NCBI GenBank assembly: GCA_001510135.1
Contig: LFER01000041.1
Span: forward strand, 1 to 64,000
DNA: 64,000 nucleotides
Origin: Alphaproteobacteria bacterium casp-alpha6
Lineage (GTDB): Bacteria > Pseudomonadota > Alphaproteobacteria > Rhodobacterales > Rhodobacteraceae
Reading direction: 5' to 3'
Both the position numbers and the translations under genes were made by a program. Below, piece after piece: positions 12,840 through 35,165 of the stretch. Under the pieces are notes generated by a model. That model was not told the DNA's origin, made no database searches, and saw only the letters and a list, made by a program, of their open reading frames with translations. The stretch's first letter is position 1. Every line of letters begins with the position of its first letter.

Positions 12840-13979
12840 ATGAAAAAAAATACGTCAGCCCCAGACGCCAAATCCGAAACTCTGAATATGCAATCTGTTT
12901 TGTCGATGCGTTCAAGTGGATATTATTCTCAGCGCACAGCTGGGGCCAAACATGCGATTGACAGTGTCCTGCCCCTTATGAAAGAGGCGCTTGGCCATCT
13001 GCCAGTCTCAGACATGTTACGGTTTGCAGATTTTGGGGCGGCAGATGGTGGTACGAGTGCTGCGTTATGGACAGAAATCATCGCCCATCTGCGACAAAGC
13101 GGCGATGGCAGGGCGATTGAAATCCTATACACCGATTTGCCATCCAATGATTTTTCGACACTCTTTAAAACAATGCAGGGCATGCATGGAGATCCTTCGG
13201 TGGCCTATCAGTCCCGCTATGAAAATGTTTTTGTCCATGGCTGCGGGACCGGTTTTCACCGGCAACTTATGGCCAATAGCAGCCTCGCGCTTGGGTTTTC
13301 GGCAACGGCGATGCATTATGTGTCTGAAAAGCCATGCGAAATCGAAGAACACGTTCATATGGTGGGGGCAAATCCCGATGAACGGGCACAATTTGCGCGA
13401 CGCGCCGCAGAGGATTGGGAAAAAATCCTGCTTGCGCGCGCCGCTGAGATGCAAGAAGGCGCGCGATTTATTGTCTTGAACTTTGGCATTGATGAAAAAG
13501 GTCGGTTCCTTGGCAACACGGGCGGTCATTCGATGTTTGACAAATTTAATGACCATTGGCGCGCACTTTTGAACGCGGAAAAAATAACCCGCGATGAATT
13601 CAGACGTGCCACATTTGTCCAGCATTATCGTACGGTTGAAGAATTTGAAGCGCCATTTGCAGATAGTGATGGAGCGGTGAGCAAGTCCGGTCTGAGGCTC
13701 AAGTCAACGCGTACCCAATTGACGGAATGCCCCTATTATCGCGCCTTTCAGGCGTCAGAAGGCGCAATGTCAGCGGCCGACTATGCGGCCTCTCTTATTC
13801 CCACGATGCGCAGCTGGTCAGAAACCGTCTTTCTGTCTGCGCTAGATGCCCGCCCTCGGGCCGAAGCGCAGGCCATTGTCGACGAGTTTTACCAATCCTA
13901 CGAAGATGAGGTGGCACAAAACCCCGAAGGACACGCGATGGATTATATTCATGTCATTATGATGATTGAGAAAACCTGA
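12840..13979 (+). CDS. SABATH-type SAM-dependent carboxyl methyltransferase-like protein
   Basis: MRSSGYYSQRTAGAKHAIDSVLPLM, FADFGAADGGTSA, YTDLPSNDFSTLFKTM and ARAAEMQEGARFIVLNFG match the SABATH layout by eye. Confidence 0.75.
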   Translation: MKKNTSAPDAKSETLNMQSVLSMRSSGYYSQRTAGAKHAIDSVLPLMKEALGHLPVSDMLRFADFGAADGGTSAALWTEIIAHLRQSGDGRAIEILYTDLPSNDFSTLFKTMQGMHGDPSVAYQSRYENVFVHGCGTGFHRQLMANSSLALGFSATAMHYVSEKPCEIEEHVHMVGANPDERAQFARRAAEDWEKILLARAAEMQEGARFIVLNFGIDEKGRFLGNTGGHSMFDKFNDHWRALLNAEKITRDEFRRATFVQHYRTVEEFEAPFADSDGAVSKSGLRLKSTRTQLTECPYYRAFQASEGAMSAADYAASLIPTMRSWSETVFLSALDARPRAEAQAIVDEFYQSYEDEVAQNPEGHAMDYIHVIMMIEKT

Positions 13980-14129
13980 CCGCGCGTCAAATTGAAACCA
14001 TCTAATCACCCCCTATTTTAAAGATAGACAACGCTTGCTGAGCCTCAACTGAGCGATTGCCTCTTGCGAATAGGGCAAAGTTGTTTATGCCTCTGACGAC
14101 CTTTTTGAACGAACCTGTGAGACTGGGAT

Positions 14130-15647
14130 ATGCCAAATCATCTTTACGACAGCCTCTTTGCCCCACATGCGCAAAAAGACAGCGCCTTCATGCATCTGCC
14201 TTCTGGCGACGTACTTAGCTATGCGGAGTTTATGAACCTGGCGGCCCGCGTTGCCAATGTTCTGGTGGGTCTTGGTCTTGAGGTGGGTGACCGCCTTGCG
14301 GTGCAGGTGGAGAAATCGGAATTTGCGCTGGCTCTTTATGCGGCCTGCGTGCAGTCTGGGATCGTCTATCTGCCGCTGAACACTGCTTACACGGCGCAGG
14401 AACTTGAGTATTTCGTACAAAATAGTGGTGCAAAGGTGCTTGTCTGCGACGCGTCAAAAGCGGACGATTTGACACCGCTCAGCGCCAAGCTTGGCATCAA
14501 ATTAACAACACTTGATCCATCGGGAACAAGCCAGTTGCAAAAGGCGGCCATGAACGCGTCAGAGTATTTTAATCCTGTGGAGCGCGGGCCGGACGACCTT
14601 GCCGCGATCCTTTATACCTCTGGGACAACTGGCCGTTCTAAAGGGGCAATGATCAGCCATAACAATTTGCTGTCCAATGCGCGGTCTCTCTGTGCGGCAT
14701 GGCGCTTTGACGAAAGAGACGTGTTGCTCCATGCTTTGCCGGTGTTTCACACACATGGGCTTTTCGTGGCGACCAACATCATGTTGCTCGCCGGTGGCGC
14801 AATGATTTTTCTTCCGAAATTCGATCTGGACGCAATTTTTGCGCATTTGCCCCGTGCCACATCTATGATGGGCGTTCCAACGTTTTACACGCGGCTGTTG
14901 AGCGATGCGCGTTTAACAAAAGAAGCCTGTGCCCATATCCGGCTGTTTGTATCAGGCAGCGCACCTCTTTTGAACGAAACACATGTGCAATTCCAAGAAC
15001 GTGCCGGTCACGCCATATTGGAGCGCTATGGTATGACTGAAACCAATATGAACACCTCCAACCCCTATGATGGCGAACGGCGTCCGGGCACCGTCGGCTT
15101 CCCTCTGGCTGATGTTGAGTTAAAGATCACCGATCCACAAACTGGCCACCCTGTGGGAGACGGTGAAATTGGTCAGATTGAGGTCAGAGGCGCCAATGTG
15201 TTTCAAGGGTATTGGAAAATGCCGGAAAAGACCCGTGAAGAGCTTCGTGAAGACGGGTTTTTCATCACTGGCGACCTCGCAAGACGGGACAAAGACGGGT
15301 ATATCCATATTGTTGGACGCAACAAGGACCTGATCATTTCGGGCGGTTACAATATTTACCCCAAGGAAATCGAAACCCTGCTGGATGAACAGGAAGGGGT
15401 TGAAGAAAGTGCAGTTGTCGGATTGCTCCATCCTGATTTTGGCGAGACGCCCGTTGCTTTTTTGGTTTCAAAATCAGGTGCGCAAATCAATCAGTCCGAG
15501 ATTGAAAAGGTAATCGCAGATCATCTTGCCCGCTTCAAGCATCCCAAAAGACTGATTGTTTTGGAGGAACTTCCCAGAAACACAATGGGAAAGGTCCAAA
15601 AAAACCTGTTACGGGAGCAGTATAACAAACTGTTTTCAAAGGCATAG
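14130..15647 (+). CDS. AMP-binding acyl-CoA ligase, malonyl-CoA synthetase (MatB)-like
   Basis: AAILYTSGTTGRSKGAMISHNN, LERYGMTETNMNTSNPYDGERRPGTVG and the C-terminal PRNTMGKVQKNLLR. Confidence 0.85.
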   Translation: MPNHLYDSLFAPHAQKDSAFMHLPSGDVLSYAEFMNLAARVANVLVGLGLEVGDRLAVQVEKSEFALALYAACVQSGIVYLPLNTAYTAQELEYFVQNSGAKVLVCDASKADDLTPLSAKLGIKLTTLDPSGTSQLQKAAMNASEYFNPVERGPDDLAAILYTSGTTGRSKGAMISHNNLLSNARSLCAAWRFDERDVLLHALPVFHTHGLFVATNIMLLAGGAMIFLPKFDLDAIFAHLPRATSMMGVPTFYTRLLSDARLTKEACAHIRLFVSGSAPLLNETHVQFQERAGHAILERYGMTETNMNTSNPYDGERRPGTVGFPLADVELKITDPQTGHPVGDGEIGQIEVRGANVFQGYWKMPEKTREELREDGFFITGDLARRDKDGYIHIVGRNKDLIISGGYNIYPKEIETLLDEQEGVEESAVVGLLHPDFGETPVAFLVSKSGAQINQSEIEKVIADHLARFKHPKRLIVLEELPRNTMGKVQKNLLREQYNKLFSKA

Positions 15648-16662: not shown

Positions 16663-17334
16663 TTAGGCGGTTTGGCTTGCTTGGATTCCCTGCATTTGAA
16701 GCATAAACCCGTCCTGTATGTGAGCGGTGAAGGTTTCCAGCGCTGCGGTGCGATCCCCTGTTGCGATCACCTCTACCAAAGACATGTGATCACCAAGAGA
16801 CTGGGCGAGATCCACTTTCTCAATAGTTGCAAAAAGCGGAAAGACCTGCGCCTTTCCCCAAATCATGTTGAACATGTCCAGAAGGAACCGGTTCTTTGCC
16901 CGTTCCACAAAGGCGCGATGGATGTTGCGGTTGGCTTCAAAATACGCCCTCACAGTCGGGCTTGTTATGTTTTCCTCGTTTTCAACGGTTTTACGCAGAA
17001 ATGAAATGTCTTCGTCGGTATGGTTCACGGCGAGAATGCGTGCACACTGCCCTTCGATGGCCGCGCGGGACTGGTAAAGTTCCTTCACTTCATCCTTGTC
17101 CATTTTATAGAGCTTGAAGCTGCCTCGGTTAGACACTTCCAGTACGCCTTCCTGCGCCAAACGCATGAGTGCCTCGCGCACGGGTGTTCTACTTATCTGC
17201 ATTTCGCTGGCCAGTTTTTCCTGTACCAAAGTGTCTTCAAGACCAATGTCTCGTCGGATGATCGCTTCGACCAATTCGTCATAGACTTCATCGGCAAGAC
17301 GTCTCCGGTCTGGTTGAATACTTTTGAAGGCCAT
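16663..17334 (-). CDS. GntR family (FCD-type) regulator of the BMC locus
   Basis: DEVYDELVEAIIRRDIGLEDTLVQEKLASEMQISRTPVREALMRLAQEGVLEVSNRGSFKL. Start at 17334 is preceded by AAGGAAC. Confidence 0.9.
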   Translation of the reverse strand: MAFKSIQPDRRRLADEVYDELVEAIIRRDIGLEDTLVQEKLASEMQISRTPVREALMRLAQEGVLEVSNRGSFKLYKMDKDEVKELYQSRAAIEGQCARILAVNHTDEDISFLRKTVENEENITSPTVRAYFEANRNIHRAFVERAKNRFLLDMFNMIWGKAQVFPLFATIEKVDLAQSLGDHMSLVEVIATGDRTAALETFTAHIQDGFMLQMQGIQASQTA

Positions 17335-17356
17335 AGTTGTTCCTTTGTATCTCTGT

Positions 17357-17372: not shown

Positions 17373-17430
17373 CCAAGAATACAGTTGCAAGGGTTGGTTG
17401 AAAGTTAAAAAATCACTTGCTCCTAACTGA

Positions 17431-17446
17431 ATACTGTATACAGTAT
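17431..17446. promoter_or_regulatory. Putative GntR operator, perfect 16-bp palindrome
   Basis: ATACTGTATACAGTAT equals its own reverse complement; 25 nt upstream of the ATG at 17472. Confidence 0.8.
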
Positions 17447-17471
17447 ACATTCATATAGGGAGGTATCATTT

Positions 17472-18416
17472 ATGTGTGGTATTGCAGGACGGATCGTGAC
17501 TGGTGGCGGGCAGCTTGGTCGCAATCTGGTAGAGTTGATGGAAGCCCAGGAACATCGCGGGGCAGATAGCACTGGATTTGCAGTTTATGGTCCAATGCGT
17601 GACACCGGCTATGTACTTCGGGGCATGGGATTTGACAAAAGAAAAATCGATTCGGATCTGGTTGATTTTGAACATATTTTACGTGACCATGCGAGTGATT
17701 TTATAAGTGAGCCGACGGTCACAATCGACAACAATGCGCATTATTGCTTTCGTATGGAGATCAAAGATCCAAAGGACATCGATGCATGGGTGCAAGATGC
17801 GGATACCCTGACCGATCGCATCGAAGTGCAATCTTGCGGCAGATCGCTTGAGATTATCAAAGACATCGGCGGCGCGGCAGCTGTGGCTGATAAGCATGGC
17901 GTGCGGGACATGGTTGGAACTCATGGCTTGGGTCATGCGCGACTTGCAACAGAATCAAGTGTTCTTCCGAATGCGAGCCACCCGTTCTGGGCGCGCCCTT
18001 TTAGCGATGTTGCTATTGTACATAATGGCCAGATCACAGATTATTTTACTTGGCGCGAAAAGCTTGAACGCAAAGGTTATCGCTTCTTGACCGGTAACGA
18101 CAGCGAATTGATTGCTGTCTGGGTCAGTGATCAGATGAAATCAGGTTTGACCATGCAGCAGGCCTTAACGAACTCTATCTCTTCGATTGACGGCGTCTTT
18201 ACCTATATGATTGCCAACGCAGAGGGTATCGGATTTGCAAAAGACCGCTTTGCGATGAAGCCGCTCGTGGTGATGGATCGCAACGGGGATCTTGCGATGG
18301 CGACCGAAGAACAAGCCGTGAGGCGCGTATTTGAAGACGAAGGCGATGTGATCAATTATGATGGCCCCTCAATGACCGCGCTGTGGAGTGTGGGTAACCG
18401 GAGGTTTGCCGCATGA
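17472..18416 (+). CDS. Class II (Ntn) glutamine amidotransferase subunit, GlxB/MgsA-like
   Basis: Starts MCGIAGR with the catalytic Cys2; GTHGLGHARLATESSVLPNASHPF and VHNGQITDYF. Confidence 0.88.
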   Translation: MCGIAGRIVTGGGQLGRNLVELMEAQEHRGADSTGFAVYGPMRDTGYVLRGMGFDKRKIDSDLVDFEHILRDHASDFISEPTVTIDNNAHYCFRMEIKDPKDIDAWVQDADTLTDRIEVQSCGRSLEIIKDIGGAAAVADKHGVRDMVGTHGLGHARLATESSVLPNASHPFWARPFSDVAIVHNGQITDYFTWREKLERKGYRFLTGNDSELIAVWVSDQMKSGLTMQQALTNSISSIDGVFTYMIANAEGIGFAKDRFAMKPLVVMDRNGDLAMATEEQAVRRVFEDEGDVINYDGPSMTALWSVGNRRFAA

Positions 18417-19105
18417 GTGAACATATCGTCGATGTCGGAAAGCGCCACATCAAAGAGATCAATGAAGAAATCCAAGAGGCCGCCGGACAGGGTAAAGAGA
18501 TCAGGGTGGTAAACACTTTGTCTCGCCACAATCTGGGCGTTGGATTGCCCGACGGCACCAAAATCGCCTTTGAAGGTTCGGTGGGATATTATTGCGGTGG
18601 TTTAAATGTCGGTGCGACCATTGATATTGAGCGTAACGCGGGCTGGGCCTGTGGGGAGGGCATGTCAAAAGGCCATATAACGGTCGGCGGATATTGCGGT
18701 ATGTCCTGTGGTGCGGCCATGATGGGGGGTACTATCCACGTAAAGGGCGATGCAGGACCACGCTGCGGTGTTGCCATGAAAGGCGGCAATATCATCGTTG
18801 AGGGCAAGATCGGATATCAATCCGGATTCATGGCCCATTCCGGACGGATCATCGCCTTGGGCGGCGCTGGAGCGAGCTGCGCCGACGCACTCTGGCAGGG
18901 TGAAGTCTGGGTCGTGGGAGATGTTGAAAGCTTAGGGGTTGACGTGAATGTCGTGGAACCCACTGCCGAAGAGGTGGCAGAGGTTGACGCCATTCTCGAT
19001 CCGCTCGGTCTAAAGGATAATTCACGCAATTGGCGGAAAATGGTTTCAGGCCAACGCCTTTGGTATTTTGAAAGTAGGGACGCAAGCGCATGGTTGATGA
19101 TTTGA
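18413..19105 (+). CDS. GXGXG-domain protein, glutamate-synthase subunit 3 / GlxC / MgsB-like
   Basis: Beta-helix pattern: GSVGYYCGGLNVGATIDIERNAGWACGEGMSKGHITVGGYCGMSCGAAMMGGTIHVKGDAGPRCGVAMKGG. Confidence 0.88.
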   Translation: MSEHIVDVGKRHIKEINEEIQEAAGQGKEIRVVNTLSRHNLGVGLPDGTKIAFEGSVGYYCGGLNVGATIDIERNAGWACGEGMSKGHITVGGYCGMSCGAAMMGGTIHVKGDAGPRCGVAMKGGNIIVEGKIGYQSGFMAHSGRIIALGGAGASCADALWQGEVWVVGDVESLGVDVNVVEPTAEEVAEVDAILDPLGLKDNSRNWRKMVSGQRLWYFESRDASAWLMI

Positions 19106-20514
19106 ACAAACCTTATGAGTACCCTTTTGAGCTTCCGGCCGAGGAAGAAATCAGGTTTAAAGACGCAGGCGCGGTCGAAGGCCGACCAGCCGGAGTGCCA
19201 AGCTCTTATGATGAGGGGGGATCAACGCGCTGGACACCTGAAGCAATTTCAGAAGTGCACGCGCTCGCCCAGTTGGGCCGCTATCAGGTGCGCGGCTATA
19301 ACACCTTCAATAAACGTCTGCCGACCTTTGATGATTTGACCTTTGTGCCGGCGACCATGACGCGCCTTCCCTTGGAAGGCTATCGTGAAAGCTGTGATAC
19401 AACGACCGTTCTTGGTGGCGGTCGCGGGATCGTGGAAAATCCGCTTGAATTGAAAATTCCGATTTATATTGCCTCCATGTCCTTTGGAGCCCTCAGCGCC
19501 TCCGCCAAGGCCTCGCTCGGGTATGGTGCCTCCAAAGTTGGTACAATGACCTGCACCGGGGAAGGCGGCATGCTTGAGGAAGAACGCCAAGCCTCCCAAA
19601 AACTGGTCTATCAAATGTCGCCCGCACGCTACGGAATTGATCTTGATCATCTCAGGCGCGCGGATGGTCTTGAAATCGTCGTGGGGCAGGGTGCCAAACC
19701 CGGAACGGGCGGGCTTTTGTTGGGGATGAAAGTTTCTCCGCGTGTGTCGAAAATGCGCACCCTTCCTGAAGGTGTGGATCAGCGGTCCACCATTCGTCAT
19801 CCGGATTTCCTCGGTGCCGATGACCTTGCTGTGAAAATCGAAGAACTTAGGATCGCGACGAACTACAAAGTGCCGATTTCTATCAAAATGGGCGCGACGC
19901 GTCCGCGTTATGATGTGGCAATTGCAGCAAAGGCTGGCGCCGATATTGTCGTGGTAGACGGTGCAGAGGGGGGTACGGGAGCTTCACCGGAATTGCTTCT
20001 CAATCATACCGGTATTCCCACCATGAGCGCGATCCGTGCCGCGCGTGAAAGCCTAGATGAATGCGGCATGTCCGGCAAGGTCTCTCTGGTCGCAGCGGGC
20101 GGGATCCGCTCCGGAGTGGATGCGGCCAAAGCGCTGGCTCTGGGCGCGGATGCCGTGATGATCGGCAATTCAGCGATGATAGCCATGGGCTGTAATTCTC
20201 CCCGCTATCTTGAGGATTACACAAAGCTCGGAACGTCTCCGGGGGCTTGCCACCATTGCCATACTGGCATGTGTCCTGTGGGTGTGGCGACACAGGATCC
20301 GGAGCTCGAAAAGCGAATGAATCCCCATGCCGGTGGGGAGCGCGTTGCACGTTTCCTGACTGCAATGACGATGGAAATCACAGCGCTTGCCAAAGCCTGC
20401 GGAAAATCCTCAGTGCACAATCTCGAAGTCGAAGACCTCAGAGCACTCTCTTTCGAAGCCTCCGCATTTACGGGTGTTAAAATGGCCGGCATTGACCGTG
20501 CTTTCGACTGGTGA
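19090..20514 (+). CDS. FMN-binding glutamate synthase domain protein, GlxD/MgsC-like
   Basis: YIASMSFGALSASAKASLGYGASKVGTMTCTGEGGM, VDGAEGGTGASPE and CHHCHTGMCPVGVATQDPELEKRM. Confidence 0.92.
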   Translation: MVDDLNKPYEYPFELPAEEEIRFKDAGAVEGRPAGVPSSYDEGGSTRWTPEAISEVHALAQLGRYQVRGYNTFNKRLPTFDDLTFVPATMTRLPLEGYRESCDTTTVLGGGRGIVENPLELKIPIYIASMSFGALSASAKASLGYGASKVGTMTCTGEGGMLEEERQASQKLVYQMSPARYGIDLDHLRRADGLEIVVGQGAKPGTGGLLLGMKVSPRVSKMRTLPEGVDQRSTIRHPDFLGADDLAVKIEELRIATNYKVPISIKMGATRPRYDVAIAAKAGADIVVVDGAEGGTGASPELLLNHTGIPTMSAIRAARESLDECGMSGKVSLVAAGGIRSGVDAAKALALGADAVMIGNSAMIAMGCNSPRYLEDYTKLGTSPGACHHCHTGMCPVGVATQDPELEKRMNPHAGGERVARFLTAMTMEITALAKACGKSSVHNLEVEDLRALSFEASAFTGVKMAGIDRAFDW

Positions 20515-21203
20515 GGATCGCTGTCCTTGATGTGACAGGGCATCCCTTGCCCTTGCTCGAAGGCTTGCCCCGCGTGGGAGAGCAGATCATTTCTTGGCTC
20601 TCTCCGGCGCTGCCTGAAGCATCTTATCGATGGTATGATATTGAAGAAAACGGTGAAGACTTACCGGATATTGATGCTTTTGACGGTGTGGTTCTGTCGG
20701 GATCGGAACATGGAGTATATGACGCAACACCGTGGAATAGGCCCTTACGCATCTTTCTGCTGAAGTGCAAAGAACAGAGCAAGCCAATTTTTGGTATCTG
20801 CTTTGGACATCAGATGATGGCCGATACATTTGGGGGCCATGCCGAGTATGCAAACCAGGGCGTTATTGTTGGCGCACGTGCGTTTGAATTTGGTGACACA
20901 TCTCAAGATGCCCATGTCTGGCACAAAGACCAAGTCACGATTGTTCCACCAGGGGCGCGCATTACAGCACGCGCGCCCTACTGCCCTGTCGGTGCCCTAG
21001 AATATGATTTTCCTGCCGCAAGCGTGCAGTTTCACCCCGAATACTCAGAATATCAGCTCTGCGAAATCTTTCGCCGCGCAAGGGATGATTTTCTCACCGG
21101 TGCTGAGGCAGACGGTGCGGTGCAAAGTTTCGCGCAAACGGATGTGAAAACGGATCTGATGGCACATGAAACCGCGGCCTTCTTTCGAAAATATCTCAAG
21201 TGA
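20511..21203 (+). CDS. Class I glutamine amidotransferase-like protein (GMP-synthase-GATase/PuuD-like fold), GTG start overlapping upstream stop
   Basis: PIFGICFGHQMMADTFGG nucleophile elbow and VQFHPEYS. Confidence 0.85.
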   Translation: MRIAVLDVTGHPLPLLEGLPRVGEQIISWLSPALPEASYRWYDIEENGEDLPDIDAFDGVVLSGSEHGVYDATPWNRPLRIFLLKCKEQSKPIFGICFGHQMMADTFGGHAEYANQGVIVGARAFEFGDTSQDAHVWHKDQVTIVPPGARITARAPYCPVGALEYDFPAASVQFHPEYSEYQLCEIFRRARDDFLTGAEADGAVQSFAQTDVKTDLMAHETAAFFRKYLK

Positions 21204-21373
21204 AGCAAAATACGCCACTTGCCGCGTCACCTGTGATCTGCCACCTGCCTCCATTGAGATCAATCAGACAAAGACCTTCGACTTTTTCTTTGAAAAAATA
21301 CTCATGATATTCTGACAGCAGCATAAAATTCTGCACGAAGGCGTAAAAATCATCCGCATTCAAACCTGCTGCT

Positions 21374-22516
21374 CTAGCGTCCGCTCGGGCTTTCTTTGGG
21401 GGATAACTTGCGCCGCCCCGCAATCTTAAAGCGGTCTGCAGTGCCATAATCGCGCAGAGCCACACCAGCAGTAAATTGTCCGAAGACAGGACCATGTTTG
21501 AACAGATGCCCAGAACACCCGCCCGCAAGCAGCACGTTTTCATGTTCAGGGTGCCAATCCACAATGAAATGCGTATCAGGCGTCAGAATAACCTGATTGA
21601 ATTTGCTATCCACAATCCGTTGCCCCTGAAGCCCGGGTAAACGGTGACGAATGTATGTTCGTGTTTTGTTGAGGGACTGTTTTTCGATGAGGCGCTCATC
21701 GTTATTGATATCAATCGGCGTGTTGGGAATAACCACCGCGGCCTTAACACCCGACCCTTCGGAGGATGGAATGCCAAAAGATCCCTGCCCATGATCAATC
21801 CAACACGGCATATTGGCCATATCAAAGGCATCAGAACCCTCTGGCGTAGAGGTGTATAGAACATTTATACCCATAATCGCGGATATGGGTTTTACGGTGC
21901 GCGGGAACATTTCGGCTTTCCAAGCCCCTGTCGCGATGACGATCACATCTGCTTCCAGAGGTTTCCCATCAAGCATCGGTTTTTCAGATGCATCCGTTGT
22001 GACAAGCCCCCTTTTCAAAGTGCCGCCCGCCCGTTTGAACAAATCGATGGCAGTAATGACACAGCGATGCGCCATCAGTAATCCTGCTTCCGGTTCAAAG
22101 AGGGCATAGTCAATTTCATCGACTTTGAACTGTGGAAAACGGTCTTGAATGTCGCGCTGTGAAAACCGGTAGTAGGGCACGCCCACGCGATCAAATGTCT
22201 CGCTTGTCGCGTCTTCCCAATCGCAGTGACCTGCGGTCGCCAGAATCAGGGCACCGCATTCATACATAAGGTTCTGACCGCTTTCTGCCTGCAGTTCCAG
22301 CCACATTTGCCTGCTTTGACGGGCCCATCTTGTGTAAAATTCGTCTCTGCCAGAAATGGCTCTGATGACGCGGTTGTAATCCGAAGATGCTGCTCTGGCG
22401 TGTCCGGGTTCCCAGCGGTCAATAAGCGTCACTTTTTCGCCGCGCCGTTGCAAACTCAAAGCTGTCATCGCGCCGGCGATTCCGCCTCCAACGACAATAA
22501 TGTTCGCTTTGCCCAT
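21374..22516 (-). CDS. FAD-dependent oxidoreductase, monomeric sarcosine oxidase/SolA-like
   Basis: MGKANIIVVGGGIAGAMTALSLQRRGEKVTLIDRWEPGHARAASSDYNRVIR and C-terminal AGGCSGHLFKHGP (flavin-linkage region). Confidence 0.88.
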   Translation of the reverse strand: MGKANIIVVGGGIAGAMTALSLQRRGEKVTLIDRWEPGHARAASSDYNRVIRAISGRDEFYTRWARQSRQMWLELQAESGQNLMYECGALILATAGHCDWEDATSETFDRVGVPYYRFSQRDIQDRFPQFKVDEIDYALFEPEAGLLMAHRCVITAIDLFKRAGGTLKRGLVTTDASEKPMLDGKPLEADVIVIATGAWKAEMFPRTVKPISAIMGINVLYTSTPEGSDAFDMANMPCWIDHGQGSFGIPSSEGSGVKAAVVIPNTPIDINNDERLIEKQSLNKTRTYIRHRLPGLQGQRIVDSKFNQVILTPDTHFIVDWHPEHENVLLAGGCSGHLFKHGPVFGQFTAGVALRDYGTADRFKIAGRRKLSPKESPSGR

Positions 22517-22547
22517 AAAAAAACCCTTGCAGAAACTGTATTTATGG

Positions 22548-22563
22548 ATACTGTATACAGAAT
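22548..22563. promoter_or_regulatory. Putative GntR operator in the divergent FAD-oxidase / glutamine-synthetase-like promoter region
   Basis: ATACTGTATACAGAAT matches 15 of 16 positions of the 17431 palindrome. Confidence 0.75.
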
Positions 22564-22613
22564 ACAATGTGATTTCAAGCACTGATCACGAAAACACAGA
22601 AGGGGAGAAGAAC

Positions 22614-23921
22614 GTGGCGAACGGGGACTATTCATTACCAGAGGGAACACATACCGTCATATTGGGACTTGGGGATATGAACGGTATTATGCGCGGAAAA
22701 CGTATTCCGGCAACGCATTGGGACAGCATTTGTCAATCTGGTAATGCGCTGTCGGTTGCTCTTTTTGCTATCGATATGACCTGCGACGTTTGGGATACGC
22801 CCTATGTGAATTTCGACAATGGCTACCCAGACTGCCACATGATGCCAATGAGCAAACCCGCTTCCATTCCTTGGGAGCCCGGAGTGGCAATGTGTTTCGC
22901 GCGTGCCGAGGGGATGGATCACAAAGAAGTGCCAATTGATCCGAGAAACGTTTTGAAGCGTCAAGTAGAACGTGCTGCCAATATGGGTTTTGAAATCAAT
23001 GTAGGGACCGAGTTGGAATTTTACCTTTTGGATCCAGAAACGAACCAACCGCGAGACGTGGGAATTGATGTTTATGGTTTGGGTCGTGCTGCTGAAATGG
23101 AGCATGTGATTGGCCCAATACGACAGCAAATCAATGAATTCGGTATTCCGATTGAACAGTCAAACCCTGAATATGCGGCAGGGCAAGTAGAGGTCAATAT
23201 CCGCTATGATGCTCCGATGGTTGCGGCTGATCGTGTTGTCATGTTCCGGACCCTTGTAAAACAGCTGGCGGCCCTGCAAGGGTATCGCGCAACATTTATG
23301 GCCAAGCCGTTCTTTGAGCAAAGCGGCAATGGATTCCATACGCATTATTCTCTTTGGAAAGATGGCAAGAATATCCTTTCTGATGGTGGAAAGCTTAGTG
23401 GCCTAGGGCGTAACTTTATTGCAGGATTGCAAAAACGTATATCCGAAGCGGCGCTTTGCGGTTCTGCCACGGTAAATGGGTTCAGACGCCGTCAGCCTTA
23501 TACCTTCTGTCCGATTAACACCTGTTGGGGTATGGACAATCGCACTGTTGCGATCAGGGTGATTGAAGGATCAGAAGCTTCCACGCGCGTTGAAAAGCGT
23601 GATGCCGGGGCGGATTGTAACCCATATCTTTTGCTCGCCACAGATATAGCAGCCGGCCTTGACGGGATAGAGCAAGGCTTGGAACCCTCTGAAATGACGA
23701 CCGGCAATGCTTATGAAGAGGAAGGCGCAGAGCCCATTCCGACCGATCTTGAAACTGCAATCTCGCTCGCGCGCGGGTCAGAGTGGCTCAAGGATGTTAT
23801 GGGGGATCTGATGCATGAGCTGTATTGTCAGCAGTCCGAGCGTGAACTGGCCTTCTTTAACGATTACATGACCAATCGCGTGACACAACATGAACGCGAC
23901 CGTTATCTGGGTAATTTCTGA
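22614..23921 (+). CDS. Glutamine synthetase-like gamma-glutamyl-amine ligase (GmaS/PuuA/GlnT-type), GTG start
   Basis: VGTELEFYLLD, GNGFHTHYSLW, NGFRRRQPYTFCPINTCWGMDNRTVAIRVIEG and ADCNPYLLLATDIAAGLDGIEQG. AGGGGAG precedes the GTG. Confidence 0.88.
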   Translation: MANGDYSLPEGTHTVILGLGDMNGIMRGKRIPATHWDSICQSGNALSVALFAIDMTCDVWDTPYVNFDNGYPDCHMMPMSKPASIPWEPGVAMCFARAEGMDHKEVPIDPRNVLKRQVERAANMGFEINVGTELEFYLLDPETNQPRDVGIDVYGLGRAAEMEHVIGPIRQQINEFGIPIEQSNPEYAAGQVEVNIRYDAPMVAADRVVMFRTLVKQLAALQGYRATFMAKPFFEQSGNGFHTHYSLWKDGKNILSDGGKLSGLGRNFIAGLQKRISEAALCGSATVNGFRRRQPYTFCPINTCWGMDNRTVAIRVIEGSEASTRVEKRDAGADCNPYLLLATDIAAGLDGIEQGLEPSEMTTGNAYEEEGAEPIPTDLETAISLARGSEWLKDVMGDLMHELYCQQSERELAFFNDYMTNRVTQHERDRYLGNF

Positions 23922-24193
23922 TGCAACTCGCGCGTGTGACAGGCACCATCACCGCCACGGCGAAATCTGCGCAGCTTGTTGGGGCAAAAATGCTAATCTG
24001 TGATGTGATGGATACGCATGGGGCTATCATGGAAGCGGCCTGTATTGCCATAGACACAGTTGGCGCGGGCGTGGGGGATCAGGTTCTTGTTGTACGCGGC
24101 TCCGCAGCGCGCATGGCCCTTCAGGCCAATGTTGCCCCTGTGGATGCGGCTGTTATCGCAATTGTCGATACCATTACTGTCAAAGCAAAATAA
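23921..24193 (+). CDS. BMC-P (EutN/CcmL-type) pentameric shell vertex protein
   Basis: MQLARVTGTITATAKSAQLVGAKMLICDVMD...GVGDQVLVVRGSAARMAL...VDAAVIAIVDTITV. Confidence 0.92.
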   Translation: MQLARVTGTITATAKSAQLVGAKMLICDVMDTHGAIMEAACIAIDTVGAGVGDQVLVVRGSAARMALQANVAPVDAAVIAIVDTITVKAK

Positions 24194-24214: not shown

Positions 24215-24511
24215 ATGGCGAAACCAGCAGCGGGCCAAGCGGCCCTTGGAATGATTGAAACGCGCGGGCTTGTCGCCTCAATCGAAGCGGCCGACGCGAT
24301 GGTCAAGGCGGCCAGCGTCACCATCGTGGCCCAAACCAAAGCGGGCGGCGGACTTGTCACCACGCTTGTGCGCGGAGAAGTAGGGGCCGTTAAAGCAGCA
24401 ACGGACGCTGGCGCGACTGCAGCCAATAAAGTCGGTGAAGTTGTCTCTATCCACGTGATCGCACGTCCCCATGATGAACTTGAGGCTCTGATCGAAGGCA
24501 TTGCAGGCTAA
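24215..24511 (+). CDS. BMC-H hexameric shell protein (PduA/EutM-like)
   Basis: [82 protein letters not shown]. Confidence 0.95.
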
Positions 24512-24541: not shown

Positions 24542-25732
24542 ATGACGAATGCCTTTTCCGACTTTGCTGAGACGATGTCTCGGTCCTCAACGTCGCGCAA
24601 CCTTCCTGAGACACCGCATTATCATCGGGTCGCCGTTTTGGGGGGAGGCGAAGACGCACGTCTGATCGCCGCACTTTGCCTTTCAGAAGGGGCAGATGTG
24701 ACATTGTTTTCAGCCTATGGGGCAGAGTTGAAATCACTGCGCAGTTCCTCTGGGGTCACTTTGCGTGGGGCGGGGCCTATGGGCACATATCAGGTAGATC
24801 GCGAAAACGTACCCTCCATTAAGGCCTGTGCGCAACTTGATGAGGCGGTCGCGGCGGCAGAGGTCATATTCTTGAGTGGTCCCGTCCATAAGCAGCGGAC
24901 CTACGCTATGGTCCTCGCGGACCATATAAGTGATGGGCAGGTGCTTGTTCTGGCACCGGGCAGGTCGCTTGGGGCCTTAGAAACGGCGTGGTTCCTGCGC
25001 ATTGGGGGCTGCAAGGCGGATATTACAATCGTCGAAACGCAAGGATTGCCATATTGGATACAGGCAGAAGGTGCGGTTTTGAACCTCGCGCCTGTGGGAG
25101 ACGTTGCAGCCGCAACTCTGCCAAGTCATCGCAGTGCGGTGATTGAGGGATTAAAGCGGTATCTGCCAAATCTGAAAGTCTACAATAGCGTATTGGAGTC
25201 AGGCTTTGCCGATGGCTCGGCAATTGTTGAATTTCCTGCACTTCTGATGAGCGGTCCGGCGCTTGGCAGTGGCGCCATACAGATCCCGATGGGGGGAACC
25301 CCTTTGCCAGAACATCAGAACTTTGCCTCGCTGATCGGCGAAGAACAACGCGGCATCATCACGCTTTTGGGGGAGGAAAGGCGCAGCGTGGCGCGCGCCT
25401 TTGGGGTGCGAAATCTTCCGGAATGTCCGGCATGGCTTGCGACACACGCGGGGCTGCTCAAGGGTGATGCACGTCGTGCCATCCCCGATCAAGCTCAGGC
25501 AAAGGCACTCCTGCGCGACGGTGTGATCGGATCGCTTGTGCCTTTGATTTCCGCCGCCGCAATCGCGGGTGTGCCGGTTCCTGTGACGGAGTCCATGATT
25601 ACACTTGCAAGCGGTGTCTTGGGGGCGGATGTCGCTGCAGCAGGGCGAAGGCTTGATACCATCGGCATTCGCACACAAGACATAGAGACAGCGCGTCAAG
25701 CCATGGACGCCATTGCAACAGGACACCGTTGA
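24542..25732 (+). CDS. NAD/NADP octopine/nopaline dehydrogenase-like protein
   Basis: N-terminal Rossmann HRVAVLGGGEDARLIAALCLSEGADVTLFS; LVLAPGRSLGALETAWFLR; AIVEFPALLMSGPALGSGAIQIP. Confidence 0.72.
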   Translation: MTNAFSDFAETMSRSSTSRNLPETPHYHRVAVLGGGEDARLIAALCLSEGADVTLFSAYGAELKSLRSSSGVTLRGAGPMGTYQVDRENVPSIKACAQLDEAVAAAEVIFLSGPVHKQRTYAMVLADHISDGQVLVLAPGRSLGALETAWFLRIGGCKADITIVETQGLPYWIQAEGAVLNLAPVGDVAAATLPSHRSAVIEGLKRYLPNLKVYNSVLESGFADGSAIVEFPALLMSGPALGSGAIQIPMGGTPLPEHQNFASLIGEEQRGIITLLGEERRSVARAFGVRNLPECPAWLATHAGLLKGDARRAIPDQAQAKALLRDGVIGSLVPLISAAAIAGVPVPVTESMITLASGVLGADVAAAGRRLDTIGIRTQDIETARQAMDAIATGHR

Positions 25733-25733
25733 T

Positions 25734-27113
25734 ATGGATCAGGATCTTCAATCCATTGCTTCAGCGCGGCGCTGCGCTGAGAAAGCTTTCAAAGCCTATC
25801 AGGATTTTCTGGGTACAGATCCTGCACATGTTGACGCAATAGTGGATGCTATGGCGCGCGCCGTTGAGCCCGAAGCCAAACGCTTAGGTCAAATGGCAGT
25901 TGAGGAAACCGGATACGGCAATGTGGACGATAAACGTGTCAAAAACCTGTTCAATGCGCTTTCGGTCGCGGATTTTTTGCGTGATGTAACAACTTTGGGC
26001 ATGTTGTGGCGTGATGATGCAACCAAAGTTGCTGCCTTTGGCGAACCCATGGGCGTCGTCGCTGCGCTTATTCCCGTGACCAACCCGACCTCAACGATCA
26101 TTTACAAAGTACTCTCAGCGGTTAAAGCTGGAAATGCAATCATCTGTGCGCCACATCCGCGCGGGATACGTTGCGGGTTGGAAACTGTGTCCATCATGGC
26201 GCGGGCAGCAGAACAAATGGGTGCTCCCAAAGGGTTGATCCAATGTCTGGATCAGGTCACCATTGCAGGCACAGCGGAGTTGATGAAACACCGCCGTACG
26301 TCGGTTGTTATGGCTACAGGCGGTCCGGCGATGGTCAAAGCGGCCTATTCTAGCGGCAAACCCACCCTTGCTGTGGGTGCTGGAAATGTTCCCTGCTATG
26401 TTCATAAATCCATGGCCAAAGAGCTTGGCGAAGTGGCCGAAATGATCGTGACTTCAAAATCTTTTGACTATGGTACAGCCTGCGTTTCTGAGCAGGCTGT
26501 CATCGCTGATCCCGAAATTGCGCGAGAATTGCGTCATGAACTCAAACTCAAGGGTGCATATTTCTGTACGCCAGCAGAGGCTGACAGGCTTGCAAAAACG
26601 ATCTTTTTGGGTAAGCGCGCTATGAACCCTGAACGGGTGGGCCAGTCACCCTATATCTTGGCCGAAAAAAGCGGATTTTCCATCCCGCCGCGTACGCGAT
26701 GCCTTGTCTCAGAAGAAAGTGAAATCGGCTGGCACAGGCCTTTAAGTGCCGAAAAACTAAATCCAGTTTTGGCCTTTTATGAAGCACGAGACAGTGATCA
26801 TGGCCTTGAATTGGCCCAACAGATTGCGCGTTTTGAAGGATGGGGGCATTCCTCAGTGGTGCATTCCAATGATCCAAGCATTGTGGCGAAATTTTCCTCC
26901 ATCCCGACGGGGCGTGTTTTGGTCAATACACCCGCGATCATGGGGGGAATGGGGTACTCCACAGATCTTGAACCTTCTTTCATGTTGGGAACAGGTACCT
27001 GGTCAGGTTCAATCACATCAGACAATGTGACGGCGCTTCACCTGATCAACATCAAACGTGTGGCCTATCAGAACCGGCCTTGGCGCGACATCTATGAGGA
27101 GTATGCAGAATGA
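25734..27113 (+). CDS. CoA-acylating-type aldehyde dehydrogenase of the BMC locus
   Basis: ALIPVTNPTSTIIYKVLSAVKAGNAIICAPHPR and active-site MIVTSKSFDYGTACVSEQAVI, resembling AdhE-type acylating ALDHs. Confidence 0.88.
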   Translation: MDQDLQSIASARRCAEKAFKAYQDFLGTDPAHVDAIVDAMARAVEPEAKRLGQMAVEETGYGNVDDKRVKNLFNALSVADFLRDVTTLGMLWRDDATKVAAFGEPMGVVAALIPVTNPTSTIIYKVLSAVKAGNAIICAPHPRGIRCGLETVSIMARAAEQMGAPKGLIQCLDQVTIAGTAELMKHRRTSVVMATGGPAMVKAAYSSGKPTLAVGAGNVPCYVHKSMAKELGEVAEMIVTSKSFDYGTACVSEQAVIADPEIARELRHELKLKGAYFCTPAEADRLAKTIFLGKRAMNPERVGQSPYILAEKSGFSIPPRTRCLVSEESEIGWHRPLSAEKLNPVLAFYEARDSDHGLELAQQIARFEGWGHSSVVHSNDPSIVAKFSSIPTGRVLVNTPAIMGGMGYSTDLEPSFMLGTGTWSGSITSDNVTALHLINIKRVAYQNRPWRDIYEEYAE

Positions 27114-27733
27114 GCGGGATTACCATTCGGGCCCTGATGCAAATTGATAACCTGCAACCGAAATTTGCAGCCTATAATGGGGCAACGGTGCAGGGATCTG
27201 TGCCCTTGTCTGGGGATACGGTTCTGATCGGAGAGTTCGCTCCGGGCAACGGAGTGTTTTCCCTCATCGACCGTGCGCTCAAAGCCTCAAGCGTTGAAGC
27301 GACCACACAGATGGTGGAACGTGAGTTTGGGTTCTTTATCCTGCGCTCACCCTCCAATGCGGAGGTCAGTGCCGCGCGCGATGCGATGCTCGCAGAGCTC
27401 GGAGCCTCCATGTCAGACCGCCTTAAACCGGCGATAACAAACACGCAGATTATCACAAGCGTCGAACCCTATCAGGCCCAGCTATTGAACAAATGGCGCA
27501 AAGGGTCACTTTTGGTGCCCGGCCAAACCTTGGGCATCATTGAATGTGCCCCCGCTGCCTATATCTCCATTGCTGCCAATGAAGCGGAAAAGGCCGCGGA
27601 AATTGATATGGTAGAGGTGCGCGCCGTGGGCCGCTTTGGGCGTCTGTTTATCTCTGGGTCTGAAAATTCGGTAAAAACCGCCATTGAGGCGGCCACCACT
27701 GCCATCGAAGCTGTTGAGGGGCGCAGTGAGTGA
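27110..27733 (+). CDS. BMC-T (tandem BMC domain) trimeric shell protein
   Basis: 207 aa, with two BMC-like halves (DTVLIGEFAPGNGVFSLIDRALKASSVEAT / GQTLGIIECAPAAYISIAANEAEKAAEIDMVEVR). Confidence 0.88.
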   Translation: MSGITIRALMQIDNLQPKFAAYNGATVQGSVPLSGDTVLIGEFAPGNGVFSLIDRALKASSVEATTQMVEREFGFFILRSPSNAEVSAARDAMLAELGASMSDRLKPAITNTQIITSVEPYQAQLLNKWRKGSLLVPGQTLGIIECAPAAYISIAANEAEKAAEIDMVEVRAVGRFGRLFISGSENSVKTAIEAATTAIEAVEGRSE

Positions 27734-28917
27734 TGGCGCAGTCGCGGGTCATCGGGGCAGAACATATTCAAGACGCCTACCAGCGTGGGCGTATCGTTTT
27801 TGAAGTCCTCTCTGGAGACATTGTCACCGATCTTGCAGTGGAGACTGCCGAGCGGCTTGGCATTCGGCTATCTGATGGACCACTGGACAAACCCGCCATT
27901 GTTAAAACGGACGGGGCAAAAGCGATGGTGCGCGGGCTTTACCGGCGCTCCTCGCGATGGGTCAGTCCTCATAAAGCGATCCCGCGGCAGGTAAGGCGGT
28001 TTTCAAAACTGGCGCTTGTTGGCGCAGGGGGCGTAGGTGGCAATATTGCCCATCTGGCTGCTCTACAGAATATGGCTGATGAAATCATGCTCATCGATAT
28101 CGTGCCGGGGATGGCTGCGGCGACGGCTCTGGATCTGAACCATGCCAGTGGAATTACAGGCGCCTCTGCGCGGTGTTTTGGCAGCGAAAACCTTGCTGAT
28201 TTGGCCGGCGCTGATGTGATTGTGGTCACAGCAGGCATGGCGCGCCGCCCGGGAATGACGCGCGCGGATCTGATCGACGTGAATAAACGGATCATACATT
28301 CGACCGCCGAAGTCATCCGTGCGCGCGCGCCCGAAGCAATTGTGATTGTCGTCACCAATCCGCTGGATGAAATGACGCTTGAGATGTTCAAAATGACTCA
28401 ATTCCCCCGTGAAAGGGTTCTCGGCATGGCGGGCACATTGGACTCCTCGCGCTTTCGAAATGCCTTGGCGGGCGCTGCAGGTGTTTCACCCGCGGATGTT
28501 GATGCGATAACGCTTGGCAGCCACGGAGATGAAATGACCCCGATCCCCTCGCTGGCGCGCATCAAAGGGCGCCCGTTAGAGAGGTATTTGACTGAAGAGC
28601 AGATAGAGGCTTGCGTCAAGGACGCGGTCACCGGCGGCGGGCAGGTGGTTACGTTAAAAAAATCAGGTTCTGCAACGATCGCTCCGGCGCATGGGGTGGT
28701 TGAGCTTTTGGATCATATCCGCGGAGCGCGCGTGGGTCCCGTACCAGTGAGTGTGATGATGGCGGGTGAATATGGGGTGCATGACGTTGTGCTTGGGGTG
28801 CCGGCGCACTTAGGTAAAACTGGGCTCATTGAAGTTGAAGAACTCCGCCTATCAGAGAGAGAATTGCAAAACCTGCATGCGGCGGCAGAGGCCGTAAGAA
28901 AAAGGCTGGAACATTAA
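27730..28917 (+). CDS. Malate/lactate dehydrogenase-like protein with ~90 aa N-terminal EutQ-like extension
   Basis: N-terminus VIGAEHIQDAYQRGRIVFEVLSGDIVTDLAVETAERLGIRL, then LALVGAGGVGGNIAHLAALQNMADEIMLIDI and LGSHGDEMTP. Confidence 0.88.
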   Translation: MMAQSRVIGAEHIQDAYQRGRIVFEVLSGDIVTDLAVETAERLGIRLSDGPLDKPAIVKTDGAKAMVRGLYRRSSRWVSPHKAIPRQVRRFSKLALVGAGGVGGNIAHLAALQNMADEIMLIDIVPGMAAATALDLNHASGITGASARCFGSENLADLAGADVIVVTAGMARRPGMTRADLIDVNKRIIHSTAEVIRARAPEAIVIVVTNPLDEMTLEMFKMTQFPRERVLGMAGTLDSSRFRNALAGAAGVSPADVDAITLGSHGDEMTPIPSLARIKGRPLERYLTEEQIEACVKDAVTGGGQVVTLKKSGSATIAPAHGVVELLDHIRGARVGPVPVSVMMAGEYGVHDVVLGVPAHLGKTGLIEVEELRLSERELQNLHAAAEAVRKRLEH

Positions 28918-29325
28918 ATGAGCATTCGTAAAACCAGTGGCGGTGGCCGGTTTGAAGAAGTGGGCTCTTATGGTCGGGCCAAACGGGTGGGCCCCTTTGT
29001 TTATGTGGCAGGCACGACAGCGATTGAACCCAGTGGCAAGCTCCACGCGCCCGGTGACAGCTATGCGCAGACGCTGTATATCCTTGGGCGCATAGAAGAA
29101 GCGCTGCGCGGAGTGGGGGCAGAGATGCGCCATGTGATGCGCACCCGTGCCTACCTCACGGATCTGAGTAACGCAGGGGGCTTTATCCGCGCCCACGGCG
29201 AAGTTTTCAAGGGGATCGAACCTGTCCTGACGGGGGTTCAGGCCGGACTGACCCAACCTGGTATGATGGTTGAAATTGACGTGGATGCGATTGTCCATGA
29301 CGCAGAGGGCAAGATCGCCTACTAA
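28918..29325 (+). CDS. RidA/YjgF family protein
   Basis: RVGPFVYVAGTTAIEPSG...MRTRAYLTDLSNAGGFIRAHGEVF. Confidence 0.9.
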   Translation: MSIRKTSGGGRFEEVGSYGRAKRVGPFVYVAGTTAIEPSGKLHAPGDSYAQTLYILGRIEEALRGVGAEMRHVMRTRAYLTDLSNAGGFIRAHGEVFKGIEPVLTGVQAGLTQPGMMVEIDVDAIVHDAEGKIAY

Positions 29326-29328
29326 AAA

Positions 29329-30036
29329 TCAGGTCCCAAAATAGGCCTCGATGAGGCGGTTGTCTTTTCGAAGGTCTTCTACGGTGCCCTCGACCTGCAT
29401 CTTACCCGCCTCAAGCACATAAATCCTCTCCGCCAATGTCATCGCAAAATTGGCGTTTTGCTCGGTGATCACAACTGTCAAACCGAAATCATCGCGCATC
29501 CTTCGCAAGGAAACTGCGATTTCCTGACAGACTTTGGGCGCGAGCCCGATGGTGGGTTCATCCACCAAAAGCAAATTCGGAGACGTCATGAGCGCGCGAC
29601 CGAGGGACACCATTTGGCGTTCTCCTCCAGATTGGGTTGCTGTTTCCTGAGTTTCGCGCTCTGCCAGCCGTGGAAAGAGGGAATAGACTTGAGAAAGGTT
29701 TGCGGCAGTGTCTGCTTTTGCGGTAAAGGCGCCAACCAGGAGATTGTCTTTGACGCTCATATACGGGAAGAGGTTAAAACGTTCCGGCGCATAGCCGATC
29801 CCGCTTTTGACAATATTTGAGGTGGATTTTCCCGAGATTACAGAGCCGTCAAAATCGATCTGACCAGTTTGACGCACGAGCCCCATGATGCTGTCCAAGA
29901 GAGTGGATTTTCCTGCACCATTGGCGCCAACAATCGCGATGATTTCACCTTTTTCAACGGACAGGGAAATATCGCTCAAAGCTTGGGCTTTGCCATAATA
30001 GGCGCTGAGCGATTTGATCTCGAGATAGCTCATCAC
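29329..30036 (-). CDS. LIV-type ABC transporter ATPase (LivF-like)
   Basis: VGANGAGKSTLLDSIMGL, SGGERQMVSLGRALM and LLLVDEPTIGLAPKV. Confidence 0.93.
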   Translation of the reverse strand: MMSYLEIKSLSAYYGKAQALSDISLSVEKGEIIAIVGANGAGKSTLLDSIMGLVRQTGQIDFDGSVISGKSTSNIVKSGIGYAPERFNLFPYMSVKDNLLVGAFTAKADTAANLSQVYSLFPRLAERETQETATQSGGERQMVSLGRALMTSPNLLLVDEPTIGLAPKVCQEIAVSLRRMRDDFGLTVVITEQNANFAMTLAERIYVLEAGKMQVEGTVEDLRKDNRLIEAYFGT

Positions 30037-30764
30037 ACCTCTCCCAAATAAGATGCGCGCACTGTTTCATCATTGATGACCTCGTTAAACGTGCCTGTTG
30101 CAATCATTCTGCCCCGTTCAATTGCGATCACATGATCCACTAAAGGTTCGAGTGCCGGAAGGTCATGGCTGACCATCAACATCGTGAAGCCTTTCGCACG
30201 CAGGTCTTGGATCAGCCCACTGATTTGAGAAATTTCACCGGTTGTCAGGCCAGCAAAAACTTCATCAAGCAAAAGAACCTTAGCACCTGTTGCGATGGTT
30301 CGTGCCAATTCCAGCTTGCGCAAATCTCCCATAGATAGATCAGAGGCCGGTTTTTCAAAATCATTCTGTGAAAAGCCGACATCGAGGGCCAGTTGGATTT
30401 CTCTGTCTTTATCTGGTCCTTTTGTAATCATTGACCATATTGAATTGGGCATAAAACCCACGCGGATGTTTTCCAGCACCGACAGTTCAAGAAAAGGGCG
30501 GGGGATTTGGTAAGTTCGACTGACACCGCGCCGGATGCGTTCTGCGGTAGGCCGGGTGCCGAGGGTTTTGCCAAACAGTGAAATTTTTCCGGAGGTTTGT
30601 CTTAGTTCCCCCATGATCTGACTGAAAACGGTGGTTTTTCCTGCGCCGTTCGGGCCGATCAGACCAACAGACTGACCAGTTTTGATATCAAAGCTCAAAT
30701 CATCCGTGGCAACAAGTCCGCCAAATGTTTTCACCAAATTTCTTATCTCAAGCGCGTGGGTCAT
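30033..30764 (-). CDS. LIV-type ABC transporter ATPase (LivG-like)
   Basis: IGPNGAGKTTVFSQIMGEL, SMGDLRKLELARTIA and VLLLDEVFAGLT. Confidence 0.93.
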   Translation of the reverse strand: MTHALEIRNLVKTFGGLVATDDLSFDIKTGQSVGLIGPNGAGKTTVFSQIMGELRQTSGKISLFGKTLGTRPTAERIRRGVSRTYQIPRPFLELSVLENIRVGFMPNSIWSMITKGPDKDREIQLALDVGFSQNDFEKPASDLSMGDLRKLELARTIATGAKVLLLDEVFAGLTTGEISQISGLIQDLRAKGFTMLMVSHDLPALEPLVDHVIAIERGRMIATGTFNEVINDETVRASYLGEV

Positions 30765-31708: not shown

Positions 31709-31709
31709 G

Positions 31710-32561: not shown

Positions 32562-32591
32562 AAATTCGGCCCCAAGCCAATAATTGGCGCG

Positions 32592-32620
32592 TTTGGGGCG
32601 GCATGATATGCCGCCCCAAA
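32592..32620 (-). other. Intercistronic hairpin between SBP and permease genes
   Basis: Perfect 13-bp stem TTTGGGGCGGCAT-GAT-ATGCCGCCCCAAA. Confidence 0.8.
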
Positions 32621-32629
32621 GTGTTGTGT

Positions 32630-33913: not shown

Positions 33914-33939
33914 AATTTCCTCCATGTTGCTCTTTCTGT

Positions 33940-33955
33940 ATTCTGTATACAGTAC
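33940..33955. promoter_or_regulatory. Putative GntR operator upstream of the ABC transporter operon
   Basis: ATTCTGTATACAGTAC matches 14 of 16 positions of the 17431 palindrome; 26 nt upstream of the start. Confidence 0.75.
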
Positions 33956-34148
33956 ACAGTGTTTGTGCTGTCGCAAATCTTTTTTTGCCTCTCGCACATT
34001 TTCTGACGATAAAATCGTGTCTAACTTGTGAAACTTGGAGTAATGCTTGTCTTCAGGTCTCTACTTATTCCCTAAAACAAGCAAAGCTCCTGCTTTGAGG
34101 AGAGATCAAAAACACTCAGTCATGTTCACAGCCGGGGGAACGGCCCCG

Positions 34149-34913: not shown

Positions 34914-35080
34914 CAACTTGGCTTCTGTTTGGCAACAAATTGTTCGTACTCTTGGCTTAACAGCTCGGCTCTCAGCTTTGCCTCTGCGATGATTTTTCTC
35001 GTCTGCCATTCTTCATGGCTTAGGTCGTGCCAACCTACGCAATACTGCGTGGGTGAACGACCACATTCACACATCTTCAT
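34913..35080 (-). CDS. Small 55-aa Cys-rich protein, TGATG-coupled to the SDR gene (below the ORF-track cut-off)
   Basis: Reading the minus strand: MKMCECGRSPTQYCVGWHDLSHEEWQTRKIIAEAKLRAELLSQEYEQFVAKQKPS*, whose stop overlaps the SDR ATG. Confidence 0.65.
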   Translation of the reverse strand: MKMCECGRSPTQYCVGWHDLSHEEWQTRKIIAEAKLRAELLSQEYEQFVAKQKPS

Positions 35081-35165
35081 GCTTTCTCCCGTCAGTATGG
35101 GTGGCTAAACCCTCTTCCCTATTCAAAAGAGTACAGCCTGACAGGAATAAATCAATCCAGATTGT

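Follow-up and report, generated by a model that had tools for sequence, protein, structure and literature searches.

A conserved gene set of marine bacteria that appears to feed a microcompartment by amine-glutamate coupling and aldehyde release

The 64,000-nucleotide stretch of DNA analysed here (the window) carries a gene cluster in which, as far as sequence can tell, a GS-like ligase module, a glutamate-synthase-like trio and an FAD oxidase are parts of one system with a microcompartment. The cluster is probably a regulon for amine catabolism, whose cytosolic front end resembles the N-methylglutamate pathway and supplies a metabolosome. We infer all chemical steps, the direction of the malate dehydrogenase (MDH) and the localisation of the cargo as follows. 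A Liv-type transporter would import an amine or amine precursor, and the GS-like ligase would form the gamma-glutamyl amide of the amine from glutamate and ATP. The MgsABC-like trio would then free the amine at its amidotransferase site and couple it to 2-oxoglutarate at its FMN site, yielding an N-alkylglutamate, whose N-alkyl carbon would be oxidised by a sarcosine-oxidase-like FAD enzyme, and the imine would decay, possibly with the help of a Rid protein, to glutamate and an aldehyde. Within the shell, an acylating ALDH would convert the aldehyde to acyl-CoA, while MDH, at a guess, would re-oxidise lumenal NADH by reducing oxaloacetate. Because no PduL phosphotransacylase was found, acyl-CoA is proposed to leave the shell, perhaps via a CcmP-like trimer, and CoA exchange through this BMC-T would again be a guess. 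More tentatively, and with somewhat more doubt than confidence, the cluster may represent a type of metabolosome lacking a functional description, one that obtains its aldehyde via gamma-glutamylation and N-alkylglutamate oxidation and not through a lyase, aldolase or dehydratase, recycles NADH by a malate shuttle with encapsulated MDH and does without a PduL-type phosphotransacylase.

All six proteins named in the initial annotation of positions 17472 to 23921, namely, the GS-like ligase, amidotransferase, GXGXG protein, FMN protein, class-I GATase and FAD oxidase, were recovered there, and several genes of the cluster overlap by 1 to 20 bp, those of the ligase and BMC-P included. A search of the whole genome for BMC-domain genes (PF03319, PF00936) found a single locus, which is that of the window. 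To describe the conservation of the cluster, genome contigs were searched with a profile of the ligase alignment, the best 80 of 146 loci were kept, and the window proteins were mapped onto these 80 and onto loci from related genomes, which gave 67 entries with a shell (L018 and L024 represent one contig). The order oxidase-ligase-BMC-P-BMC-H-ODH-ALDH-BMC-T-MDH-Rid (ODH being an opine-dehydrogenase-fold protein) was identical in 48 of the 49 loci holding all nine genes, and homologous complete loci were spread over alpha- and gammaproteobacteria. Retention of the cluster in more than 60 other loci excludes a chance association, and the genomic linkage of front end and shell is strong. Moreover, all 12 shell-bearing genomes tested that had no linked trio carried an unlinked one elsewhere (76 to 94% identity), and none of the nine orphan-ligase genomes had a trio. 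One orphan-ligase genome (L100/L019) has a BMC locus elsewhere, and two SAR116-type loci (L102 and L103) hold only the ligase and a class-I GATase, with neither a window-type trio nor a shell. The locus occurs in the cultured marine Ruegeria profundi, Falsiruegeria mediterranea, Hoeflea, Sulfitobacter and Lentibacter algarum; the set of genes kept in these marine bacteria appears to feed a microcompartment by coupling an amine to glutamate and then releasing an aldehyde.

A common operator was found along the cluster. The gene for a GntR/FCD regulator (16663 to 17337, minus strand; Pfam GntR and FCD) is divergent from the trio, and operator 1 (AATACTGTATACAGTATACA, 17429 to 17449) lies 5' of the trio, operator 2 (GGATACTGTATACAGAATACA, 22546 to 22566) in the oxidase-ligase gap and operator 3 (33938 to 33958) 5' of the gene for the transporter's substrate-binding protein. 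Allowing at most two mismatches, CTGTATACAG was present in 62 of 63 oxidase-ligase, 31 of 31 GntR-trio and 17 of 32 transporter intergenic regions, compared with shuffle means of 2.7, 2.4 and 1.5, respectively; the GntR/FCD protein is presumed to be the owner of this operator. In the window's own genome (a 2.98-Mb assembly, 86% complete), the extended operator occurred only at the three promoters of the window locus. In another genome (G095), a copy of the extended operator at C16:4738 lies ∼1.6 kb upstream of the FMN gene of the unlinked trio (C16:1676-3097, minus strand), and the operator was also found in shell-less sister loci. The common operator and the co-occurrence of trio and shell suggest that module and shell are one regulon, which agrees with the earlier proposal that the module feeds the shell. 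A fourth TGTATACA, at 37788 to 37795 within the gene for an amidase fusion, is probably a chance occurrence.

The putative gamma-glutamyl-amine ligase (22614 to 23921, plus strand; Pfam Gln-synt_C) lies in an open reading frame of 22500 to 23921, in which the GTG at 22614 is the probable true start. Phylogenetic placement, on which the initial view of this protein as something other than an ammonium-assimilating GlnA had been made to depend, put it into a separate clade outside both GlnA and GmaS (SH-aLRT 100 in a quick tree), while its position beside PuuA in the same tree was weakly supported. Its scores were 235 bits against the GmaS/type III model TIGR03105 (cut-off 469.6) and 204 bits against the PuuA model NF045547 (cut-off 650), and it also fell well below the curated GlnA cut-off. 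In the alignment, the metal, ATP and glutamate residues were kept in all 33 ligases; the ammonium-site E327 of GlnA was Phe in 33 of 33, and D50, S53 and Y179 of GlnA were replaced in nearly all, mostly by Ser, Leu or Val. GmaS and organic-amine ligases have been reported without the same ammonium-site residues (PMC7948447, PMC11335346). Tree, cut-offs and residues together rule out that the ligase is a GlnA or a bona fide GmaS, and the view that it is not an ammonium-assimilating GlnA has held, as far as sequence can tell, on the basis of its own clade and the replacement of D50, S53, Y179 and E327.

The trio consists of an MgsA-like class-II amidotransferase that begins MCGIAGR, with Cys2 as nucleophile (17472 to 18416; Pfam GATase_6/7), an MgsB-like GXGXG subunit (18413 to 19105; Pfam GXGXG) and an MgsC-like FMN/3Fe-4S glutamate-synthase subunit (19090 to 20514; Pfam Glu_synthase), all on the plus strand. 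Identity to GmaS-linked homologues was ∼31% for the amidotransferase and ∼33% for the GXGXG subunit, with a range of ∼31 to 34% over both, and the FMN subunit was 52 to 55% identical to GmaS-linked MgsC versus 34% to the genome's own GltB. The catalytic residues of the amidotransferase (Cys2 and the oxyanion Asn/Gly) were invariant in 15 of 15 homologues, and the three 3Fe-4S cysteines of the FMN subunit were conserved among homologues. In the tree, the trio formed a clade separate from GmaS-linked Mgs and distant from GltB. Identity and tree thus rule out, as a matter of family placement, an ordinary glutamate synthase; the earlier assignment to the MgsABC side is borne out as far as sequence can tell, the trio being an MgsABC relative in the GmaS-linked gene order. 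The window's own genome also carries, on contig C6 (G000; L141:4817-9566), a copy of a third kind of trio that belongs neither to the window type nor to Mgs; its amidotransferase, GXGXG and FMN genes adjoin a second GS-like ligase.

The class-I GATase downstream of the trio (20511 to 21203, plus strand, GTG start; Pfam GATase) has gamma-glutamyl peptidase 1 as its nearest solved chain, and its Cys, His and Glu are conserved among homologues, so that it is probably a gamma-glutamyl hydrolase-like accessory protein. It is missing from some intact loci, where the remaining gaps measure 15 to 79 bp; in the larger gaps of L055, L069, L072, L073, L078 and L090, the tblastn threshold might miss divergent copies. 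Its absence from intact loci rules it out as an essential PuuD-like step.

The FAD oxidase (21374 to 22519, minus strand; Pfam DAO) is a SolA/monomeric-sarcosine-oxidase-like amino acid oxidase, which, among solved structures, is related to sarcosine and N-methyltryptophan oxidases (MSOX/MTOX chains) and for which BLAST detected no match to PuuB. The equivalents of MSOX R52, K265 and K348 were invariant in 27 of 27 sequences, and the covalent-flavin Cys was usually lost. No close homologue was found at an E value of ≤1e-40 in 195 other genomes of the class. The C-terminal tail (E/D)SPSGR (of 21374 to 21420) was invariant in 24 of 24 homologues from alpha- and gammaproteobacteria and could possibly be a docking motif. 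No recognised encapsulation peptide was found in the oxidase, so that the aldehyde may arise outside the shell, unlike in classical signature enzymes.

The shell genes encode a BMC-P (EutN/CcmL) pentamer (23921 to 24193; PF03319), a BMC-H hexamer (24215 to 24511; PF00936) and a CcmP-like BMC-T trimer (27110 to 27733; PF00936), the last of which scored 208 bits against the CcmP model NF053796, below its cut-off of 340; these and the genes up to that of the Rid protein are on the plus strand. The acylating ALDH of EutE type (25713 to 27113; 5j78/3k9d) reached 490 bits against TIGR02518, below the 620 cut-off, its Cys257 was invariant in 27 of 27 sequences, and its match to PuuC was partial, at 22%. 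Since an acylating ALDH yields acyl-CoA, an aldehyde larger than formaldehyde, as first supposed, is plausible. The PduL-type phosphotransacylase, as covered by PF06130 only, was absent from the window's own genome and from 12 other shell-bearing genomes. ODH (24542 to 25732) has a conserved, encapsulation-peptide-like N-terminal helix followed by a disordered linker (pLDDT below 50) and the opine-dehydrogenase fold, and the catalytic His of CENDH (H202 position) was Glu in 26 of 27 sequences, with the Arg not conserved. MDH (27730 to 28917) matches malate dehydrogenases in fold and has the malate-type Arg (R102 type) in 27 of 27 sequences. Its N-terminal extension of ∼90 residues is conserved, and the first 45 residues of the window sequence resemble the EutQ N terminus (score 56 versus a shuffle maximum of 41), a likeness that is less clear in other sequences; against the PDB, the N terminus gave nothing significant. 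Both MDH and ODH were mapped in shell-bearing loci only, which fits, and does not show, a lumenal role in redox balance. In PVM loci, a lactate/malate-dehydrogenase-family protein is the predicted core dehydrogenase (Axen et al.; PMC4207490).

Downstream, the Rid-family protein (28918 to 29325; PF01042) has Leu or Thr at the equivalent of Arg105 in 16 of 16 aligned sequences, Arg105 being a published predictor of imine deaminase activity in Rid proteins (PMC5619798); this speaks against the favoured reading. The protein without Arg105 is nevertheless encoded at most loci that have a shell and at several that do not. The Liv/HAAT-type ABC transporter (29329 to 33922, minus strand; LivF, LivG, LivM, LivH and a substrate-binding protein) adjoins RidA in many homologous loci, and only weak solved relatives were found for its substrate-binding protein. 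No extra conserved enzyme genes were found flanking the homologous loci.

Seven loci (L020, L021, L071, L084, L091, L098 and L099) combine the ligase and trio with no shell, and no BMC genes were found in the genomes of these seven; the genome of L098 has another copy of the ligase at L060. A PuuB-like oxidase is encoded in L020, L021, L071, L091, L098 and L099 and partly in L084, a PuuC-like ALDH in L020, L084, L091, L098 and L099, and an acyl-CoA ligase in L071, L084, L091 and L098, as if the same aldehyde-to-acyl-CoA step took place in the cytosol. This shell-less route would be complete in only some loci, since no ALDH was found in the available flank of L071 and no linked acyl-CoA ligase in L020 and L099. 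An HPPD gene lies near the ALDH of L020 and was not seen in L099, and it was therefore given no weight. When presence of a shell was mapped onto the tree of the ligase, 10 changes were required, at least 7 of them forced by starred branches, indicating that shell and front end part repeatedly. As shell-less relatives exist, the shell is not obligatory, which weakens the earlier argument that the reactivity of the aldehyde would demand one.

These comparisons bear on other readings of the cluster. The oxidase might, as in a Puu-type route, act on the gamma-glutamyl amide, with the GATase later removing glutamate and the trio only recycling it. The weakly supported position of the ligase next to PuuA in the phylogeny, the resemblance of the GATase to gamma-glutamyl hydrolases and the PuuB- and PuuC-like enzymes of the shell-less loci speak for such a route, but the window oxidase lacks a PuuB match and resembles sarcosine oxidase, an enzyme whose substrates are N-alkyl amino acids, and some intact loci have no GATase whereas the trio occurs in 12 of 12 shell-bearing genomes examined genome-wide, and we hold this route to be unlikely at the window locus. 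It is similarly improbable that ODH is the lumenal signature enzyme, oxidising N-alkylglutamate with NAD+ and releasing the aldehyde within the shell, the FAD oxidase being otherwise employed. Its N-terminal helix and linker are typical of an encapsulation peptide, its fold is that of a class acting on secondary-amine dicarboxylates, and it is confined to shell-bearing loci; however, the CENDH catalytic residues are not retained, and the shell-less loci contain an FAD oxidase but no such dehydrogenase.

Glutamate-synthase-like trios are often annotated under nitrogen assimilation, and the ligase module could then be a mere neighbour of the shell, with the aldehyde of the compartment having another origin. 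We give this very little credence, because module and shell have a common operator that is limited to the window locus in its own genome, trio and shell co-occur in 12 of 12 genomes even where the trio is unlinked, the ligase and BMC-P genes overlap, and no other aldehyde-producing enzyme lies within the conserved cluster. Under the favoured N-methylglutamate-like front end, the hybrid of N-alkylglutamate and Puu routes originally envisaged separates into its halves. The first is well supported by a non-GlnA ligase and an MgsABC-type trio in GmaS-linked order; the second is weak at the window locus, where the oxidase has no PuuB match, the ALDH is EutE-like and the GATase is dispensable. An ALDH is indeed present in the BMC operon, as noted earlier, but as an acylating enzyme of EutE type and not a PuuC counterpart, and a hybrid is a better fit to the shell-less loci with PuuB- and PuuC-like enzymes.

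The N-methylglutamate pathway comprises GmaS, MgsABC and MgdABCD, and the Puu pathway comprises PuuABCD. With the former, the window cluster has in common the order amidotransferase-GXGXG-FMN subunit-ligase, a ligase without the ammonium site and a homologous trio, whereas its ligase and trio belong to clades separate from GmaS and Mgs, a single-gene MSOX-like oxidase takes the place of the heterotetrameric MgdABCD, and the module adjoins shell genes and the gene for an acylating ALDH. A GS-like ligase, an FAD oxidase, an ALDH and a class-I GATase fold recall the Puu pathway, but the oxidase and ALDH are of other families, Puu has no trio, and the GATase is dispensable at loci of the window type. 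Like EUT metabolosomes, the window locus has a EutE-type ALDH, BMC-H and BMC-P, and an MDH N terminus resembling that of EutQ; unlike them, its conserved cluster contains no ethanolamine ammonia-lyase, EutD/PduL or alcohol dehydrogenase, and its aldehyde is proposed to come from N-alkylglutamate. Of the classical metabolosome core, shell genes and acylating ALDH are present and PduL (PF06130) is absent; MDH, with its conserved N-terminal extension, is a candidate for the encapsulated dehydrogenase that regenerates NAD. In two surveys (PMC4207490, PMC8217296), MIC/MUF loci similarly have an ALDH, an incomplete core and no recognised signature enzyme, and MIC1 also contains a lactate/malate dehydrogenase family protein. 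Glutamine synthetase is unmentioned in the main texts of these surveys (Axen 2014, Sutter 2021), and no description of an amine-fed BMC locus type was found in the literature covered, which took in the main text of PMC8217296. Many catalogued metabolosomes have an ALDH and no known aldehyde source (PMC8217296). The window locus offers a concrete aldehyde-source hypothesis for such metabolosomes and ties the indirect oxidation of amines, as known from methylamine, to acyl-CoA production in a compartment; relatives that have this front end and no shell form a natural comparison for what the shell contributes.

Two further gene groups were observed around the cluster. At 12840 to 15647, a SABATH-type carboxyl methyltransferase (Methyltransf_7) adjoins a malonyl-CoA synthase, a pair also seen in L018, and L091 carries malonyl-CoA synthase together with malonyl-CoA decarboxylase. 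On the other side (34149 to 42378, minus strand), a neighbouring cluster encodes a second Liv-type transporter, an ABC-ATPase-amidase fusion of 799 aa, an SDR and an acyl-CoA ligase, which is ∼50 to 52% identical to the acyl-CoA ligase of the shell-less loci.
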